Below, one piece after another: positions 10,586-45,807 of a DNA stretch of 64,000 bases (positions are counted from its first letter, which is position 1; every line of letters starts with the position of its first letter). The position numbers were made by a program, and so were the translations under genes. Source of the DNA: Streptomyces vinaceus (GTDB lineage: Bacteria; Actinomycetota; Actinomycetes; Streptomycetales; Streptomycetaceae); assembly GCF_008704935.1 (NCBI RefSeq), contig NZ_CP023692.1, forward strand, positions 2,799,001-2,863,000, read 5' to 3'. The notes under the pieces were generated by a model. It was not told where the DNA came from. It saw nothing but the letters and a program-made list of their open reading frames with translations, and ran no database searches.

Positions 10586-10597
10586 GAGGCAGTGAAC

Positions 10598-12001
10598 ATG
10601 ACCGACGATCAGAATCAGGTCGCCCACCGGATCGAGCACGACTCGATGGGCGAGGTACGGGTCCCCGCGCACGCCAAATGGCGGGCCCAGACCCAACGGG
10701 CGGTGGAGAACTTCCCCATCTCCGGGCAGCGCCTGGAGCGCGCCCACATCGAGGCGCTCGCCCTCGTCAAGGCCGCGGCCGCCGCGGTCAACGCGAAGCT
10801 GGGCGTGGTGGACGAGGACATCGCCGACGCGATCCGCTCCGCCGCCTCCGAGGTGGCCGAGGGCCGCTGGGACGAGCACTTCCCGGTCGACGTGTTCCAG
10901 ACCGGCTCCGGGACCTCGTCCAACATGAACGCCAACGAGGTCATCGCCACCCTGGCCGGTGAGCGGCTCGGCCGCGAGGTCCACCCCAACGACCACGTCA
11001 ACGCCTCGCAGAGCTCCAACGACGTGTTTCCGTCGTCCATCCACATCGCCGCGACCGCCGCCGTCACCCGCGAGCTGATCCCGGCCCTGGAGCACCTCGC
11101 CGCCGCCCTGGAGCGCAAGGCCGCCGAGTTCGCGGACGTGGTCAAGGCGGGCCGCACCCACCTGATGGACGCCACTCCGGTGACCCTGGGCCAGGAGTTC
11201 GGCGGGTACGCCGCCCAGGTGCGCTACGGCGTCGAGCGGCTGCGCGCGGCCCTGCCCCGGCTGGCCGAACTTCCGCTGGGCGGGACCGCCGTGGGCACCG
11301 GGATCAACACCCCGCCGGGGTTCTCCGCCGCCGTGATCGCCGAAGTGGCCGCCGCGACCGGGCTGCCGCTGACCGAGGCCCGCAACCACTTCGAGGCCCA
11401 GGGTGCGCGGGACGCGCTGGTGGAGACCTCCGGGATGCTCCGTACGATCGCCGTCTCCCTGACCAAGATCTCCAACGATCTGCGCTGGATGGCCTCGGGG
11501 CCGCGCACGGGATTGGCCGAAATTAATCTGCCCGATCTCCAGCCGGGCTCGTCGATCATGCCCGGGAAGGTCAATCCGGTGGTGCCGGAGGCCGTACTGA
11601 TGGTCGCCGCACAGGTGACCGGGAACGACACGACCGTCGCCGTCGCCGGCGCGGCCGGCAATTTCGAGCTCAATGTGATGCTCCCGGTGATGGCGAAGAA
11701 CCTCCTGGAATCGATCCGGCTGCTCGGCAACGCGAGCCGCCTGCTGGCCGACCGCACGGTCGACGGGATCACCGCGAACGCGGCCCGGGCCAGGGAGTTC
11801 GCCGAGTCCTCCCCCTCCGTGGTGACCCCGCTGAACCGGTACATCGGCTATGAGGAGGCGGCCAAGGTCGCCAAGAAGTCCCTCGCCGAACGGAAGACGA
11901 TCAGGGAGGTCGTCCTGGAGGGCGGGTACGTCGAACGCGGCGACCTGACGCTGGAACAGCTGGACGAGGCCCTCGACGTCCTGCGGATGACCCGGCCCTG
12001 A
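10598..12001 (+). CDS. fumC: Class II fumarate hydratase, iron-independent
   Basis: It carries out reversible hydration of fumarate without an iron-sulfur cluster. The 467-residue protein has the aspartase/fumarase signatures [39 protein letters not shown] and the catalytic loop [23 protein letters not shown] at 10583-10589 lies 8 nt from ATG 10598 but only 2 nt from the in-frame GTG at 10592, so I place the start at the ATG. Class II enzymes commonly back up the [4Fe-4S] class when iron is scarce or oxidants are high. Only two genes separate it from the class I enzyme. Confidence 0.95.
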
Positions 12002-12104: not shown

Positions 12105-12800
12105 ATGACAGGTACCGGAGGCCGCGGGGGCGGCGACGCGCAGGGCACCCGCTGGCGGCCGGGCGAGCAGGTCCTGTGGCGCTACCGCGACCACGCCCCG
12201 GGGCTGAAGGGCGCGGTCCACATCTGCCGCCCCGTGACAGTGGTGCAGGACACCGCCGACCTGCTGGCGGTGTGGATGGCCCCCGGCACCGAGTGCGTCA
12301 AGCCGGTGCTGGCCGACGGCACCCCCGTCCACGAGGAGCCGCTCGCCACCCGGTACACCGCGCCGCGCACCACCGTGCGCTCGCGCTGGTTCGGCGCCGG
12401 CGTGCTCAAGCTCGCCCGGCCCGCGGACCCGTGGTCGGTGTGGCTGTTCTGGGACCACGGCTGGCGGTTCAAGAGCTGGTACGTGAACCTGGAGGAGCCG
12501 CGGACCAAGTGGTCCGGCGGGGTCGACTCCGTGGACCACTTCCTGGACATCTCCGTCTACCCGGACCGTACGTGGAAGTGGCGCGACGAGGACGAGTTCG
12601 CGCAGGCGCAGCGCTCCGGTCTGATGGACGCGGACCAGGCCCGCCAGGTGCGGGCGGCGGGGCGGGCGGCGGTGGACCTGATCAAGGCGTGGGGAGCGCC
12701 CTTCTCGGACGGCTGGCAGGACTGGCGGCCGGATCCCGCCTGGGGAGTTCCGGCCCTGCCCGAGGACTGGGACCGCACCCCGGCGCATATGACCTCATGA
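12105..12800 (+). CDS. DUF402 domain protein
   Basis: The 231-residue soluble protein carries a DUF402 domain. Visible features are the N-terminal RWRPGEQVLWRYRDHA, the central VLKLARPADPWSVWLFWDHGWRFKSWYVNLEEP and the acidic stretch DHFLDISVYPDRTWKWRDEDEF, which carries probable metal ligands. Some DUF402 relatives are nucleoside diphosphate phosphatases or phosphonate-ester hydrolases (FomD). The substrate here is not known. It follows fumC by 103 bp in the same direction and may be cotranscribed. Confidence 0.75.
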   Translation: MTGTGGRGGGDAQGTRWRPGEQVLWRYRDHAPGLKGAVHICRPVTVVQDTADLLAVWMAPGTECVKPVLADGTPVHEEPLATRYTAPRTTVRSRWFGAGVLKLARPADPWSVWLFWDHGWRFKSWYVNLEEPRTKWSGGVDSVDHFLDISVYPDRTWKWRDEDEFAQAQRSGLMDADQARQVRAAGRAAVDLIKAWGAPFSDGWQDWRPDPAWGVPALPEDWDRTPAHMTS

Positions 12801-13054
12801 GACCCTTGATGCGCCCCCGGGGTCCAACCGTAAGATCTCCCTCCGCAAGGGTCGCGCGCGGGAGGTGCACGGGGCCCCGAATCCGTAAATGTCGTGCCGT
12901 ACGCGGGACTTGACCGGAGGTCAAATCAGAGCGAGAGGTAACGAGCGGGACGCGGAACCGCGGGGCGGTGGTGTCCCCGCCGCTGAGCGGGTATACCGCG
13001 ACTGACCGAGTTGAGTGCAGCGCACATCGAGCGCAAACGGACGGAATTCCACGC

Positions 13055-15406
13055 GTGACGGAGTACCCCACCTCGCAGGAGGGCCCGCAGCCTGCCGCGG
13101 CCGCCGCGACACCGGCGCCGGGCGGCCCCGGCATGCCTGCCGCCCCCGGCGGTTGCGCGGAGGAACTGGGCCACGGCAAGGCCCCCGTCCCGGCGGCCGA
13201 GGCCGTACGCGGCTCCGCCGCGCCCGGCGACGACCCGGTCCACTCGGACGTCCCGCGCCCGCGCGGCGAGGGCGTACCCGCGACCCCGCAGGACGGTACG
13301 CCCCGTCCGGCGCGCGGCCGCGCCCGCGGTACGGCGGCCCAGGGCGCGGCCGGCCGCCGCGGCCGCGACGGGGAGGCGGCGCGCAACGCCGCGCACGGGG
13401 CGCCCGCCCACGGCGAGGAGCCGGCCGACGTGTCCGCAGGACGGGCCCACGGGGCCCGCGGCGCGGGGGCCGAGGGCCTCCCGGCGGCGGTACCGGGCGC
13501 CTCCCGCCCCCGCGAGGCCCTGGCCGGAGCCGGCCCCGCCGGACAAGGCGGCGGCGCGGACGCGGCCGCCCCGGCGGCGTACGGGATCCAGGGCGCCGGT
13601 GCCGGCGAGGGCGCGGTCGGCGCGGCCGGGCCGGGGCCCGACGGCGGAGTGGCCCGGCGCGAGGGCGACCGGCTGCGGTTCGTCGGCGCCGCCACCCGGC
13701 GCATCGCCCGCGGCATCGACCTCGACGAGATCGTCCTCGGCCTGTGCCGGGCCACCGTGCCCACCTTCTCCGACGCCATCCTCGTCTACCTGCGGGACCC
13801 CCTCCCGGTCGGCGACGAGCGCCCCGTCGGCCCGGTCGTTTTAAGGCTGCGCCGCACCGACCGGCTCCGGCCGATCGACGACCTGACCGGAGCGGAGGGC
13901 GCCGGGGCCGCGGGGGGCGCCGGCGAGCTCGACTTCAGCCAGCTGCCGCTGGTCGGCCCGCAGGGTGACCTGCCCGCGGCCGAGCTCTGCGAGATCCGCC
14001 CCGGCGGCGCCCTCGCCGAGGTCCTGCGCGGCGTACGGCCCGTCTTCGGCTCCGCCGCCGGGGCCAAGGACGCGCTGCCGGAGCTGCTCGGCTCGGAGCA
14101 CCCCGTACCGCGCGGCCAGCGGGCCATCCTCGCGCCGCTGCGCGGCCGCCGCCGGGTCATCGGCTCGGCGGTGTTCCTGCGCAGCCCCGAGCGGCCCGCG
14201 TTCGAGCAGAACGACCTCCTGGTCGCCGCCCAGCTGGCCACGCACACCGCGCTCGGCATCGACAAGGCGGTCCTGTACGGCCGCGAGGCGTACATCGCGG
14301 ACGAGCTCCAGCGCACGATGCTGCCCGACAGCCTCCCCCAGCCCACCGGGGTCCGGCTCGCCTCCCGCTACCTGCCGGCCGCCGAGACGGCCCGGGTGGG
14401 CGGCGACTGGTACGACGCGATACCGCTGCCCGGCAGCCGCGTCGCACTCGTCGTCGGCGACGTCATGGGCCACTCCATGACCTCCGCCGCGATCATGGGC
14501 CAGCTCCGCACCACCGCCCAGACCCTGGCGCAGCTGGACCTGCCGCCCGCCGAGGTCCTGCACCACCTGGACGAGCAGGCCCAGCGCCTGGGCTCCGACC
14601 GGATGGCCACCTGCCTGTACGCGGTCTACGACCCCGTCTCGCACCGGATCACCATCGCCAACGCCGGCCACCCGCCGCCCGTCCTCCTGCACCTGGGCGG
14701 CCGCGCCGAGGTGCTCCGCGTACCCCCCGGCGCCCCCATCGGCGTCGGCGGCGTGGACTTCGAGGCGGTGGAGCTGGACGCGCCCGCCGGGGCCACCCTG
14801 CTGCTCTACACGGACGGCCTGGTGGAGTCGCGGCTGCGCGACGTGTGGACCGGCATCGAGCAGCTGCGCGAGCGCCTGGCCACCACGGCGCAGCTGACCG
14901 GCCTGGACCATCCGCCGCCGCTGGAGGCGCTCTGCGACGACGTCCTCGACATGCTCGGCCCGGGCGACCGGGACGACGACATCGCGCTGCTCGCGGCCCG
15001 CTTCGACGGGATCGCGCCGAGCGACGTCGCGTACTGGTTCCTGGACCCGGAGGAGACCGCTCCCGGGCGGGCCCGCCGCTTCGCCCGCCGGGCGCTGACC
15101 CGGTGGGGTCTGGAGGAGCTCCAGGACTCCCTGGAGCTCCTGGTCAGCGAGGTGGTCACGAACGCCGTGCGGTACGCCGAACGGCCCGTGACCCTGCGCC
15201 TGTTGCGCACGGACGTGCTGCGCTGCGAGGTCGGCGACGACTCCCCGCAGCTGCCGCGCCAGCGCCGGGCGCGGGAGACCGACGAGGGCGGCCGCGGGCT
15301 GTTCCTGGTCAACCGGATGGCCCGTCGCTGGGGCGCGACCCGGCTGAGCAGCGGAAAGGTGGTCTGGTTCGAGCTCCCGCTGCCGGGGCCGCCCGATCGC
15401 CGCTGA
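13055..15406 (+). CDS. GAF-SpoIIE phosphatase with C-terminal anti-sigma-type ATPase domain (TTA codon)
   Basis: The domain order is a Pro/Ala/Gly-rich, probably disordered N-terminus of about 200 residues, a GAF-like sensor (about 210-410), a PP2C/SpoIIE serine phosphatase (about 415-650: RVGGDWYDAIPLPGSRVALVVGDVMGH, ending DRDDDIALLAARF), and a GHKL ATPase like RsbW (ELLVSEVVTNAVRYAERPV, DEGGRGLFLVNRMARRW). Such proteins work in partner-switching control of sigma factors. The GTG at 13055 (VTEYPTSQEG) is my preferred start; a GTG at 12968 is possible. Leucine codon 13841-13843 in the GAF region is TTA, which in Streptomyces is read only by the bldA tRNA. Expression should therefore be developmentally limited. 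Confidence 0.85.
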   Translation: MTEYPTSQEGPQPAAAAATPAPGGPGMPAAPGGCAEELGHGKAPVPAAEAVRGSAAPGDDPVHSDVPRPRGEGVPATPQDGTPRPARGRARGTAAQGAAGRRGRDGEAARNAAHGAPAHGEEPADVSAGRAHGARGAGAEGLPAAVPGASRPREALAGAGPAGQGGGADAAAPAAYGIQGAGAGEGAVGAAGPGPDGGVARREGDRLRFVGAATRRIARGIDLDEIVLGLCRATVPTFSDAILVYLRDPLPVGDERPVGPVVLRLRRTDRLRPIDDLTGAEGAGAAGGAGELDFSQLPLVGPQGDLPAAELCEIRPGGALAEVLRGVRPVFGSAAGAKDALPELLGSEHPVPRGQRAILAPLRGRRRVIGSAVFLRSPERPAFEQNDLLVAAQLATHTALGIDKAVLYGREAYIADELQRTMLPDSLPQPTGVRLASRYLPAAETARVGGDWYDAIPLPGSRVALVVGDVMGHSMTSAAIMGQLRTTAQTLAQLDLPPAEVLHHLDEQAQRLGSDRMATCLYAVYDPVSHRITIANAGHPPPVLLHLGGRAEVLRVPPGAPIGVGGVDFEAVELDAPAGATLLLYTDGLVESRLRDVWTGIEQLRERLATTAQLTGLDHPPPLEALCDDVLDMLGPGDRDDDIALLAARFDGIAPSDVAYWFLDPEETAPGRARRFARRALTRWGLEELQDSLELLVSEVVTNAVRYAERPVTLRLLRTDVLRCEVGDDSPQLPRQRRARETDEGGRGLFLVNRMARRWGATRLSSGKVVWFELPLPGPPDRR

Positions 15407-15546: not shown

Positions 15547-17787
15547 CTACGGGATCGTGATCGGCGGGCTCTTCGTCGGGTCCGGGCTCTTCGTCGGGTC
15601 CGGGCTCTTGGTCGGGTCCGGGCTCTTGGTCGCGCTCTTGGTCGGGTCCGGCGACCCCTTGCCGGGATCCGGGGTGTTCTTCGACGGCGAGACCGGCGCC
15701 GACGGCGTGTTGGCGGAGGAGGAGCTCGACGAGGACGGGGAGCTGCTGCGGCTCGGCGCCTGCGAGGCGCCCATCTTCGCCTCGGAGAGGTCGAACTCGC
15801 CGGTGTCCACGCCCTTGAGCGCGGCCAGCGTGTACGCCTTCCAGATCTCGGCCGGGAAGCTGGAACCACCCGCTCGGCCACCGCCGGCGGTACCGGTCAG
15901 GGTGACCTGCTTGGCCGTTCCGGGCTCCTCGCCGAACATCGCGACGACGGTGACCAGTTCCGGCGTGTACGCGGTGAACCAGGCGGCGACGTTGGACTCG
16001 GTGGTACCGGTCTTGCCGGCGGCCTCGTACGCGGAGCTCTTGACGGCCTTGCCGGAACCGTCCTGGACGACGCCGGTGAGCACCTTGGTCACCGTGTCGG
16101 CGGTCTGGCGGGTGATGGCCTGGCCGCCCACGGACTCGACCGGCTTGAACTCGCGGGTGGCGTGCTTGGCGGCCTTGATGATCGTCGGCGTGGTCTTCTT
16201 GCCGTGGTTGTCGAAGGTGGCGTAGACGGCCGCCATCTCCAGCGTGTTGGCGCTCATGGTGCCGAGCGACATGGCCGGCTTGTCGGCCGGCCAGCCGTCG
16301 CGGTCCTTCATGCCGAGCTGCAGCGCCGTCTTCTTCACGTTCGGCGGGCCCACGTCCACGATCATCTGGGCGTAGACGGAGTTCACGGAGGAGTTGGTGG
16401 CGGCCTGGACGGTCAGGAAGGGGTCGCCGTAGTTCAGGTTGTCCTGGTTCTGCGGGGCGAACGGGGTGTCGCTGCCCACGACCGGGCGCTTGCTGGTGCC
16501 GTCGTAGAGCGCGTTCGGCGTGATCGGCTTGCCGTCGTGCGTCGTGGACTTGTTCTCCAGCGCGGAGGCGAGCACGATCGGCTTGAAGGTCGAGCCGGGC
16601 TGGAAGTCCTGGCGCAGGGCGTTGCTCGCCCAGTGGTCGGAGAGCCCGGTGCCGCCGTACATCGCGACGACCGCGCCGGTCTTCGGGTCCACGGAGGTGG
16701 CGCCGGCCTGCACGCTCGCGTCGACGGGGCGGTCCTTGCGGTTGAGCTGGGACTCCAGCTCGTCCTGGACGGCCTTCTCCAGCGCGGCCTGCTTCTTCGG
16801 GTCGATGTTGAGGGTGATCTCCCAGCCACCGGCCTGCAGTTCCTGGGTGGTCATGTTGGTCTGCCTGCGCAGTTCCGCGTCCGCGGCCTGCTTCAGGTAG
16901 CCCTTCTGGCCCTCCATGCCGGGGGCGGCCTTCGGCTTGATCGGCATCGGGAGCTGGAGCTGCTTGCGCTTCTCCGGGTCGAGCGCCTTCATCTCGACCA
17001 TGTTGTCGAGCACGCCGTTGAAGCGGATCTTGACCAGGCGGGTGCCGTTGGGGCCCGCGGTGGCGAGGTCGTAGTCGCTGGGCGCCTGGAGGACGGCGGC
17101 GAGGTACGCGCCCTGCTCCAGGGTCAGCTTGTCGACGTCGACGCCGTAGTAGGCCTGGGCGGCGGCCTGGATGCCGTACGCACCGCGCCCGAAGTAGCTG
17201 GTGTTCAGGTAGCCGGCGAGGATGTCCGGCTTCTCCATGCGCTGGTCGACCTTGAGGGAGATCACGAGCTCCTTGAGCTTGCGCGTCGCCGTCTGGTCCT
17301 GGTTCAGGTAGAAGTTCTTGACGTACTGCTGGGTGATCGTCGAACCGCCGGCCTTGCCCTTGCCGGTGACCGTGTTGAACAGGCCTCGGGCGATGCCGAG
17401 GAAGTCGACGCCCTGGTCCTGGTAGAAGGACTTGTTCTCGATGGCGATGAAGCCGGTCTGAACGTCCTTGGGCACCCGGCTGAGCGGCACGATCTCGCGG
17501 TTCATCTTGCCGTCGCGCGCCATGATCGAGCCGTCCGCGTACTTGTAGACGTTGCTCTGCGTGATGGCGTCGGCGTTCGGGTCGGGCTCGTCCACGTAGA
17601 AGTAGAGGGCGACGAGTGCGCCCATGCCGAGCAGGATGATCCCGAAGAAGGCCCCGAGGATCTTCTTCCATGTGAAGAAGCGACGTATACCGGTCCGCTC
17701 GCCGGCGCGCCCCTTCCCGGTGGCGCGCCCGCGCGGCGCCCGTCGCGTACTGCGCTGCTGCGCCTTACGCGCTTCTGCTCGGCCCAT
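15547..17787 (-). CDS. Bifunctional class A penicillin-binding protein
   Basis: The 746-residue membrane-anchored enzyme polymerises and cross-links peptidoglycan. A basic cytoplasmic N-terminus precedes one TM helix (ILGAFFGIILLGMGALVALYFY). The GT51 transglycosylase domain follows (FIAIENKSFYQDQGVD, GGSTITQQYVKNFYL). The transpeptidase domain has GSTFKPIV (SxxK), a TNSSVNS region (SxN) and GKTGTTESN (KTG). The C-terminus is low-complexity: a Ser run, then repeated DPTKSP units ending KSPPITIP. The 3' end of the gene is two minisatellites in series, so the tail length probably varies between strains. Confidence 0.92.
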   Translation of the reverse strand: MGRAEARKAQQRSTRRAPRGRATGKGRAGERTGIRRFFTWKKILGAFFGIILLGMGALVALYFYVDEPDPNADAITQSNVYKYADGSIMARDGKMNREIVPLSRVPKDVQTGFIAIENKSFYQDQGVDFLGIARGLFNTVTGKGKAGGSTITQQYVKNFYLNQDQTATRKLKELVISLKVDQRMEKPDILAGYLNTSYFGRGAYGIQAAAQAYYGVDVDKLTLEQGAYLAAVLQAPSDYDLATAGPNGTRLVKIRFNGVLDNMVEMKALDPEKRKQLQLPMPIKPKAAPGMEGQKGYLKQAADAELRRQTNMTTQELQAGGWEITLNIDPKKQAALEKAVQDELESQLNRKDRPVDASVQAGATSVDPKTGAVVAMYGGTGLSDHWASNALRQDFQPGSTFKPIVLASALENKSTTHDGKPITPNALYDGTSKRPVVGSDTPFAPQNQDNLNYGDPFLTVQAATNSSVNSVYAQMIVDVGPPNVKKTALQLGMKDRDGWPADKPAMSLGTMSANTLEMAAVYATFDNHGKKTTPTIIKAAKHATREFKPVESVGGQAITRQTADTVTKVLTGVVQDGSGKAVKSSAYEAAGKTGTTESNVAAWFTAYTPELVTVVAMFGEEPGTAKQVTLTGTAGGGRAGGSSFPAEIWKAYTLAALKGVDTGEFDLSEAKMGASQAPSRSSSPSSSSSSSANTPSAPVSPSKNTPDPGKGSPDPTKSATKSPDPTKSPDPTKSPDPTKSPPITIP
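15566..15650 (-). repeat. 18-bp tandem repeat encoding the SPDPTK tail of the PBP
   Basis: At least four near-identical 18-bp units (15566-15583, 15584-15601, 15602-15619, then a partly degenerate region) encode the SPDPTK repeats at the C-terminus of the penicillin-binding protein. The unit is a multiple of three, so unit number can change without a frameshift. Confidence 0.85.
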
Positions 17788-26997: not shown

Positions 26998-27681
26998 TCA
27001 CTTGCGCAGGGCCGCCATGAGGGTGCGCATGTCCTCGATCATCGCCGCCTCGACGGCGGCCTCGTCCGGCTCCGGGACGTCGGGCCCTCCGTACCACTGG
27101 ACGGTGAGGCTGAAGGCGGCGCCCCCGTCGAGCACTTCGAGCCGTGAGCCGCCGACCCTGCGGGTGAGCAGCGACCGCTCGCCGAGCCCGGGCACCTGCT
27201 CCACCTCGCCGCCCGAACTCGCCATGGCCCCTCTGCCGCCGAGGACGGTGGGTCCGGCGCCGAACTCCGAGCGGGGGTCGGCCTTCTTGTGCAGCTCGAC
27301 CAGCACCTCGGCCTCGTACGACAGGCGGTCGTCGACGTAGGGCGCGCCGTACGAGCAGTACGCCCAGTCGAGCGCGGGGTGCTCCTCGTGGCGCGCGTTG
27401 TCCCCCGCGAGCCGCGTGGTGGAGGCGGAGACCGCGGTCAGCTTCACCTTGCACAGGTCCTCGGCGTGCCGGTACGCGATCCGCGGCGGGCGGTCGCCGA
27501 AACGATCCTGCGCCACCAGGACACCGGCCCATACGGCCGAGGCCGCCACGGCCCCGCCGAGCGCCCATAACCAGGCCGTACGGGGCCTCCGTACGCGCTC
27601 GCGCGGGGCGCCGGGCTCCTCGGCCGCCGTGGCCGGCCCGTCGCCGCCCCACTCCCCCGCGAGCTCAGGCTCGCTGATCAC
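26998..27681 (-). CDS. Single-pass membrane protein of unknown function (TTA codon)
   Basis: The 227-residue protein has an acidic, Pro-rich cytoplasmic N-terminus, an Arg cluster (RERVRRPRTAW), one TM helix (LWALGGAVAASAVWAGVLVAQ) and an extracytoplasmic domain with two cysteines (EDLCKVKL, AYCSYG). I do not recognise the domain. The Leu in AWLWAL is encoded by TTA (27570-27568), so translation should depend on the bldA tRNA. The ATG at 27681 lies inside the end of the upstream AI-2E-type permease gene (17-bp overlap), so the two are cotranscribed. Confidence 0.7.
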   Translation of the reverse strand: MISEPELAGEWGGDGPATAAEEPGAPRERVRRPRTAWLWALGGAVAASAVWAGVLVAQDRFGDRPPRIAYRHAEDLCKVKLTAVSASTTRLAGDNARHEEHPALDWAYCSYGAPYVDDRLSYEAEVLVELHKKADPRSEFGAGPTVLGGRGAMASSGGEVEQVPGLGERSLLTRRVGGSRLEVLDGGAAFSLTVQWYGGPDVPEPDEAAVEAAMIEDMRTLMAALRK

Positions 27682-44870: not shown

Positions 44871-45500
44871 TCAATCGACCAAACGCACGTCAAACAGGGT
44901 CCTGGCGATCTTGCGCCAGGGGTCGGGCTTCGAAGGGTCCACCACCAGGTCTTTCCCGCCCTTGCACTTGAACGTCACCGGCAGCGCCGGAGTCGGGCCC
45001 TGGGTGGGCGTCGGGGACGGGGTGGGGGCAGGCGCCGGAGCGGCGTCCAGGGTGCAGCGCGGCTCGATCGCCGCGGTTGCCTTCGCCCGTCCATGCACGC
45101 TGCCGGTACCCGGAACGACGGACTTCCCGACCGTCCCGTTGGTCGTCGCCTCGACCGCGAACCCGCGAGCCCGTGGAGTGCAGGTCGCCGACGCGTCGTT
45201 CTTGGCTGCGAAGCTGCTCGCTTCCGCGCAGGAACCGGTCGAGTCCAGCAGTTCCCCACGAAGGATCCTCTCCCAGTCCTCGGGTTCGAACTTCGCGAAG
45301 TCCACGCCCGGGACCAGGTGGTCTCGGGCGTCCCGCGCGGCTGCGAGGGCGGCCGCGTCGGCGGCACCTTGCGCGTTGCTGCGCGTGAGTGCCGCCTGCC
45401 CGAAGACGAAGAAGGCGAACGCGGCGAAAAGCATCCCCGCCACCAGCACGATGTAGAGGGGGAATGCCTGTCCTCGTTCGTCGAACTTCGCCGAGATCAC
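44871..45500 (-). CDS. TadG-like membrane protein
   Basis: The 209-residue protein starts at GTG 45500, overlapping the Flp pilin stop (GTGA). The N-terminus is the pilus-type helix of TadE/TadG proteins: DERGQAFPLYIVLVAGMLFAAFAFFVFGQAALTRSNAQGAADAAALAAARDAR. The extracytoplasmic part has several cysteines and a Pro-Thr stretch (PAPAPTPSPTPTQGPTPALP) before a C-terminal VTFKCKGGKDLVV. TadG proteins are thought to be pilus-associated or wall-linking factors. Confidence 0.8.
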   Translation of the reverse strand: MISAKFDERGQAFPLYIVLVAGMLFAAFAFFVFGQAALTRSNAQGAADAAALAAARDARDHLVPGVDFAKFEPEDWERILRGELLDSTGSCAEASSFAAKNDASATCTPRARGFAVEATTNGTVGKSVVPGTGSVHGRAKATAAIEPRCTLDAAPAPAPTPSPTPTQGPTPALPVTFKCKGGKDLVVDPSKPDPWRKIARTLFDVRLVD

Positions 45501-45697
45501 CGCCCCGCGGTGACCGCGGTGACCGCTGCGGCGATCCGGTTGGTGATGGCCTGGCCGATGCCCGTGCCCACGATCGCGCCGATGATCACTACGACCACCA
45601 GGATGATGCCCAGGTACTCGAAGGCCGTCTGGCCTCGGTCCTGGGTGGGCTTGGTGGCGTACCGCTTCCGCATCCTCGCCAGGGTGTTCTGCAACAT
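45497..45697 (-). CDS. flp: Flp/type IVb pilin
   Basis: The 66-residue major pilin candidate starts at ATG 45697 behind GGAGGAAA. It has a basic N-terminus (MLQNTLARMRKRYATKPTQDRGQ), then the hydrophobic assembly helix AFEYLGIILVVVVIIGAIVGTGIGQAI. The conserved Glu and Tyr at +5/+6-like positions (FEYLG) follow the likely peptidase cleavage after RGQT or nearby. A 110-bp gap from the response regulator gene is the only sizeable space in the operon, so the pilin may have its own promoter. Confidence 0.88.
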   Translation of the reverse strand: MLQNTLARMRKRYATKPTQDRGQTAFEYLGIILVVVVIIGAIVGTGIGQAITNRIAAAVTAVTAGR

Positions 45698-45807
45698 GGG
45701 GGTTTCCTCCCGGGCCGGTGGCGCTGTTGGTTTGCGGACCGTACGGGGAGTCACCGGTGTTAACCAAGGGTCCCGGGGCCCAATTACGGACCCACTGCGC
45801 ACTCCGT

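Follow-up and report, generated by a model that had tools for sequence, protein, structure and literature searches.

The gene encoding a SpoIIE-type phosphatase in Streptomyces vinaceus contains one in-frame TTA codon that is retained across most of its clade. Orthologues from other lineages present TTA at other places or not at all, and none of those with a recognised start presents two. Judging from comparative sequence data, we consider it fairly probable (roughly 0.7) that selection keeps one UUA gate in this gene, with the bldA tRNA as its presumed reader and with its position turning over. This suggests that the place of the rare codon, which probably gates translation by growth phase, is less important than the presence of one.

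The window, i.e., the whole stretch of 64,000 nucleotides that was analysed, covers 2.80-2.86 Mb of the 7.67 Mb genome. The features discussed below are the following:

13841 to 13843, forward strand: TTA (Leu263), "site A", retained by 26 of the clade's 29 members
13055 to 15406, forward strand: SpoIIE-type phosphatase gene, stop included, whose GTG start is seen again in orthologues
13838 to 13840, forward strand: GTT (Val262), rare codon preceding the TTA (GTT in 16 and GTC in 9 of 25 TTA carriers)
13844 to 13846, forward strand: AGG (Arg264), rare codon after the TTA (25 of 25 TTA carriers, 27 of 28 clade members)
13871 to 13873, forward strand: position of "site C", CCG (Pro273) in the window's gene and the place of the TTA in the sister lineage
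13055 to 13657, forward strand: variable Ala/Pro/Gly-rich N-terminal stretch, which holds "site B" in the largest Streptomyces lineage sampled
13991 to 14263, forward strand: stretch matching Pfam GAF_2, below the cut-off
14432 to 15004, forward strand: SpoIIE (PP2C-type) phosphatase domain (PF07228, E 2e-54)
15065 to 15367, forward strand: HATPase_c_2 (anti-sigma-kinase-like ATPase) domain (PF13581, E 1.1e-11)

The sequence-only reading had reported a TTA at site A between rare GTT and AGG codons, and this description is accurate. In frame with the ORF at 12968-15406, the codons at 13838-13846 are GTT, TTA and AGG, and the TTA is codon 263 counted from the GTG at 13055 and the sole in-frame TTA of the gene. 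Over seven genes of the window, GTT represents 3 of 273 Val codons, AGG 7 of 267 Arg codons and TTA 1 of 339 Leu codons. Although the longest ORF starts at the GTG at 12968, the GTG at 13055, with T-E after it, has a counterpart in the orthologue N-termini inspected, truncated or frameshifted ones being the exceptions. The TTA is thus in frame and downstream of a credible start, as in a TTA-containing gene for which bldA control is predicted. In three loci (L002, L025 and L043) the N-terminal frame seems broken in a GC-rich linker, perhaps by assembly errors. The stretch that precedes the GTG start (12968-13054) contains the in-frame SGYTATDRVECSAHRAQTDG, with GGTATACC, and is well preserved in the window's clade; a promoter and an alternative start are candidate readings for it. 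The neighbours are a fumarase-like gene at 10592-12001, which we take to be a class II fumarase, a DUF402 gene at 12105-12800 and, on the opposite strand, a penicillin-binding-protein (PBP) gene at 15547-17787. TTA was seen in 4 of 54 roughly called ORFs of the window. Besides the phosphatase, a predicted 227-aa protein (26998-27681, reverse strand) has one TTA (codon 38) in an apparent membrane segment, and the TTAs of the ORFs 1357-2046 and 45497-45802 lie upstream of the likelier start, as judged by eye.

The product of the gene is 783 residues long. Its N-terminus is rich in Ala, Pro and Gly and varies in length; after it come a GAF_2 match (residues 313-403), the SpoIIE phosphatase domain (460-650) and HATPase_c_2 (671-771). 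The sequence-only reading placed the TTA inside a GAF domain, but the assignment of this domain is weak: the GAF_2 match scores 23.8 bits against a cut-off of 28.6 and, given its extent, residue 263 falls outside the matched stretch. With a mean pLDDT of 45, the AlphaFold model is of low quality, and residue 263 adjoins a short, low-confidence strand in it. Membership in the SpoIIE/PP2C family is indicated by the PF07228 match and by the motifs GGDWYD, YTDG and DDDIAL, which are invariant in 22 aligned sequences and whose conserved acidic residues are presumably metal ligands. The candidate feature for partner-switching control of a sigma factor is the HATPase_c_2 domain, which lies inside the phosphatase protein itself. 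The closest solved relative by sequence is Rv1364c of Mycobacterium tuberculosis (PDB 3ke6; E 1.2e-30, residues 426-708), whose likeness spans the phosphatase region and runs into the beginning of the ATPase region, the N-terminal parts being unmatched.

Orthologues were collected from 80 loci of named genomes and from loci of further genomes. One search matched 146 genomes, of which G097, G137 and G158 were left out, as were second, more distant copies. In a search of 121 genomes, 54 gave no hit at a threshold of 1e-200; all 39 matching genomes from other genera of the family were included. Eight loci whose last 1,500 coding bases equalled those of another locus, and likewise L285, were removed before counting. 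The first set comprises the 215 orthologues left after removing identical loci and the full set comprises 272, of which 240 have a recognised start. The other 32 have a truncated contig, a frameshift or an unmatched start pattern; 14 of them contain one TTA and none contains two. In-frame TTAs upstream of the GTG start were excluded (L026, L035, L044, L049, L054, L057, L063, L083, L098, L099, L303 and L309).

Across the 272 orthologues, the window's codon is TTA in 26, CTG in 219, CTC in 16, TTG in 7, CTA in 2 and TTC in 1, with one gap. TTA at this exact codon was found in the window's clade only (25 of 28 members in the first set, plus L286); outside this clade none of the 272 orthologues presents it, and TTA is elsewhere or absent. 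The exact codon is therefore not widely conserved. The sequence-only reading proposed that orthologues be aligned for conservation of the TTA, and counted its absence from all relatives, together with a normal protein level in a bldA mutant, as evidence against bldA control. Relatives of the window's gene do carry the codon, but conservation stops at the border of the clade, such that the interpretation is supported in part: the TTA is kept and a tRNA-Leu(UAA) gene is present, but the exact codon is specific to a lineage.

The 124 TTAs of the first set are distributed over site A (25), site B (69), site C (29) and one place near the C-terminus (L249). Site B is N-terminal, around codon 40 (range of codons 34-68; exactly codon 43 in 4 of 69 genes), in a stretch that aligns poorly and in which L050 was placed by eye. 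Site C lies ten codons 3' of site A. A hold-out of 18 further orthologues of the same genus yielded eight genes with one TTA (one at site A, three at site C and four at site B), ten with none and none with two. Among the 39 orthologues from other genera, 16 have one TTA, 23 have none and none has two (12 of the 30 with a recognised start have one). The places of these TTAs are different again. One is close to the N-terminus, two are within the phosphatase part and another is in the C-terminal tail; a further three columns, close together in a loop after site C, perhaps represent fewer true sites.

We built a gene tree from 549 core codons, omitting the TTA columns. Site A was found in one clade of 28 members (25 with TTA), site B within a clade of 92 (69 with TTA) and site C within a clade of 68 (29 with TTA). 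Parsimony infers one gain and three losses for site A, and one gain and nine losses for each of sites B and C; at equal costs, site B requires three gains and six losses. When any TTA is scored, we obtained two gains and 19 losses with gains made dearer, and five gains and 16 losses at equal cost. On a tree of three flanking genes (167 loci), the carriers of site A (17 of 18 tips) and of site B (57 of 76) again fall in clades of their own, but carriers of site C are not separate from those of site A. Because the clades of A and C are sisters, inseparable on the flanking genes, and few gains are required when any TTA is scored, A and C may represent one gain that moved. An artefact of the gene tree can be rejected for A and B, whose clades recur on the flanking genes with TTA columns having played no part in the gene tree; the clade of C does not recur. 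We also rejected a codon held in common with the nearby paralogue (G000:C1, 2.77 Mb), whose 879-codon stop-to-stop frame lacks TTA. In the site-A clade, TTA is replaced by CTG in L120 and by CTG and CTA in L011 and L114, respectively; no replacement TTA was seen in these three genes, of which the latter two are 5'-truncated.

Among the 272 orthologues, 148 of 22,285 Leu codons are TTA. In contrast, flanking genes are almost free of TTA: 0 of 6,143 Leu codons for the fumarase-like gene (148 loci), 1 of 2,935 for DUF402 (199 loci), 0 of 6,658 for the PBP gene (146 loci) and 0 of 285 for one further neighbour (9 loci). In the other genera, the fumarase-like gene and DUF402 contain no TTA among 674 (17 loci) and 268 (18 loci) Leu codons, and the PBP control had no match in 19 loci. 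TTA is thus kept among orthologues beyond chance, at the exact window codon only within the window's clade. It is also lost slowly. Within the phosphatase gene, we counted 6.8 codons per parsimony change for TTA versus 1.27 for TTG, 1.11 for CTT and 1.00 for CTA. Among the 18 rare-leucine columns with at least 10 occurrences, the three TTA columns rank highest (13.6, 6.25 and 3.6), followed by a TTG column (2.8). Over 62 conserved Leu columns, in which site A is the only TTA column, the maximum-likelihood loss rate is 2.2 for TTA versus 9.9 for pooled TTG, 15 for CTT and 33 for CTA; sites B and C, fitted alone, yielded 0.9 and 2.4. Two of ten singly fitted TTG or CTT columns have rates similar to those of TTA (2.05 and 2.29), such that the contrast resides in the pooled figures, and the signal of retention rests on about three main gains.

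A first alternative is inertia: a TTA that arose by chance in each lineage, has no effect and has not yet mutated away. It would accommodate the one main origin per site, the 106 of 240 orthologues that manage without TTA and the two single TTG columns that are lost about equally slowly. However, TTA can leave through two synonymous single transitions (to TTG or CTA) and is nonetheless lost slowly, about 4-15 times more slowly at site A than pooled TTG, CTT and CTA of the same gene. With the pooled TTG rate imposed, the fit worsens by 6.0 log units at site A, 21.2 at site B and 6.8 at site C, and the near absence of TTA in flanking genes also speaks against inertia, which we regard as unlikely. 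Retention by selection as a bldA-tRNA-dependent gate is, on these comparisons, the most likely reading. The gate would be dispensable in some groups, since the orthologues without TTA include whole lineages.

The surroundings of the three sites have nothing in common but the TTA. The base that follows it is A at site A (25 of 25), C at site B (68 of 68) and A or G at site C (29 of 29); the next codon is always AGG at site A and a Pro codon at site B. In work on ccaR, the base after the TTA reportedly affected misreading in bldA mutants. The GTT before site A is not conserved, being GTC in 9 of 25 TTA carriers. The AGG is unusually steady, with 32 codons in 6 changes versus 288 in 215 for AGG elsewhere, and of the three clade members now lacking the TTA, two still have it (CTG AGG and CTA AGG) and the third reads CTG AGA; beyond a slow transversion, we offer no explanation for this.

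A second alternative, which we find improbable, is that the rare codon aids folding by slowing the ribosome, the pause falling between domains or inside one and being unrelated to bldA timing. The AGG retained after site A is itself rare. Site A and site C are in the GAF-like part or close to it, and so are the loop sites seen in other genera, as such a pause would predict. Other lineages, however, have the codon near codon 40, within the phosphatase domain or among the final residues, and one folding pause could not serve the same end from such scattered places. Finally, an element in the DNA or RNA (an operator, a promoter inside the gene or a processing site) overlapping the codon at each place is very improbable despite the strong retention of TTAAGG in the window's clade, since TTA alone is common to the three contexts and the synonymous positions near site A are no steadier than elsewhere (8-codon blocks from columns 1150-1157 rank 252-447 of 479), for which reason a conserved nucleotide element around site A was rejected.

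Returning to the single gate, 134 of the 240 orthologues with a recognised start contain one TTA, 106 contain none and none contains two (114, 78 and none, respectively, among the 192 of the first set); this absence of doubles depends on the GTG start, as a start far upstream would give L054, L098 and L099 a second TTA. We simulated independent gain and loss with simple rates on a midpoint-rooted tree, accepting runs in which the TTA tips and sites roughly matched. Zero doubles were obtained in 0 of 227 runs across all tips (median of 8 doubles), in 2 of 511 runs across the tips with a recognised start (median of 7) and in 1 of 600 runs when TTA-tolerant and intolerant lineages were modelled (median of 13). 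As a separate observation, L035, L044, L049, L054, L063 and L083 share a recurrent in-frame TTA slightly fewer than 30 codons upstream of the GTG start, which might represent a 5' element; L049 alone shows, in the same frame, a GTG that lies still further 5'. In one published survey, 92% of the TTA-bearing Streptomyces ORFs hold a single TTA (PMC10327506), such that avoidance of doubles may be general. We tentatively propose, with somewhat less than even odds, that selection holds this gene to exactly one UUA codon, wherever it is placed. If true, each UUA would contribute one fixed dose of delay in translation, mobile along the gene with a conserved regulatory effect; its movement would resemble the turnover of transcription-factor sites in promoters, and TTA-free lineages would have switched to another mode of control.

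The genome encodes the tRNA that such a gate would need. Of 69 tRNA matches to RF00005, ten long ones were read by ARAGORN and one is a bldA-type tRNA-Leu(UAA) gene (G000:C1:4483676, anticodon taa). Under our proposal the TTA would be a translational gate: UUA would be read efficiently only when this tRNA is charged and abundant, and the phosphatase would consequently be made mainly when tRNA-Leu(UAA) is available. Selection would act on the gene having one UUA, whichever leucine it encodes; TTA would have arisen at different codons in different lineages and been retained there, a second TTA being avoided. We infer that the bldA tRNA would limit the level of the phosphatase, that its production would be late and that a sigma-factor cascade would be its target. 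The phosphatase is a likely component of the bldA programme.

A conserved TTA in this phosphatase gene has probably been listed before, without comment. In the parts of PMC10327506 that bear on it, 11 TTA positions are listed as conserved, and one of them belongs to the S. coelicolor SpoIIE family phosphatase FQ762_RS26065, where it occupies nt 127-129 (codon 43). This gene is probably the S. coelicolor orthologue of the window's phosphatase, and its codon 43, lying inside the range of site B, fits that site. Its locus-tag number would interpolate to about SCO5046, near SCO5040, using SCO numbers for adpA and for the phosphatase neighbourhood that we assume to be correct. In the literature consulted, SCO5040 appears in one table row, as an orphan kinase. 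It is not among rows SCO4395 to SCO5203 of the table of frequent TTA genes in PMC4255298, and the main text of PMC2000904, on the effects of bldA, contains neither "SCO504" nor "SpoIIE" nor "phosphatase". Unlike our analysis, PMC10327506 scores one position and, in the parts relevant here, does not mention sites A, C and others or the lack of doubles in this gene; the gap between its figures of 18 and 11, the latter being the conserved positions, suggests that TTA positions vary in some genes. In the open-licence literature consulted, we found no description of the window's own site, the other sites, the positional turnover or the pattern of one TTA per gene.

Whether bldA and TTA codons form a true regulatory device, as opposed to the wiring of other networks, is an ongoing debate (PMC3814723), and a gene whose TTA shifts in place, is retained and shows no doubling is a natural case in which to test dosage and independence of position. 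The phosphatase gene resembles adpA of the bldA-adpA switch in being a Streptomyces regulatory gene with one internal TTA read, presumably in our case, by the bldA tRNA. According to the sections of PMC4255298 on this gene, however, adpA is the only gene with a TTA in all streptomycetes analysed there and its TTA lies between its two domains, whereas the place of the phosphatase TTA varies by lineage and the codon is often absent. The amf (SapB) clusters provide a closer parallel: there, TTA is found in either ramR or ramC, kept somewhere with its place shifting between lineages (PMC4255298, same sections). The difference is that TTA moves between the genes of a cluster in amf, but between the codons of one gene in the phosphatase.
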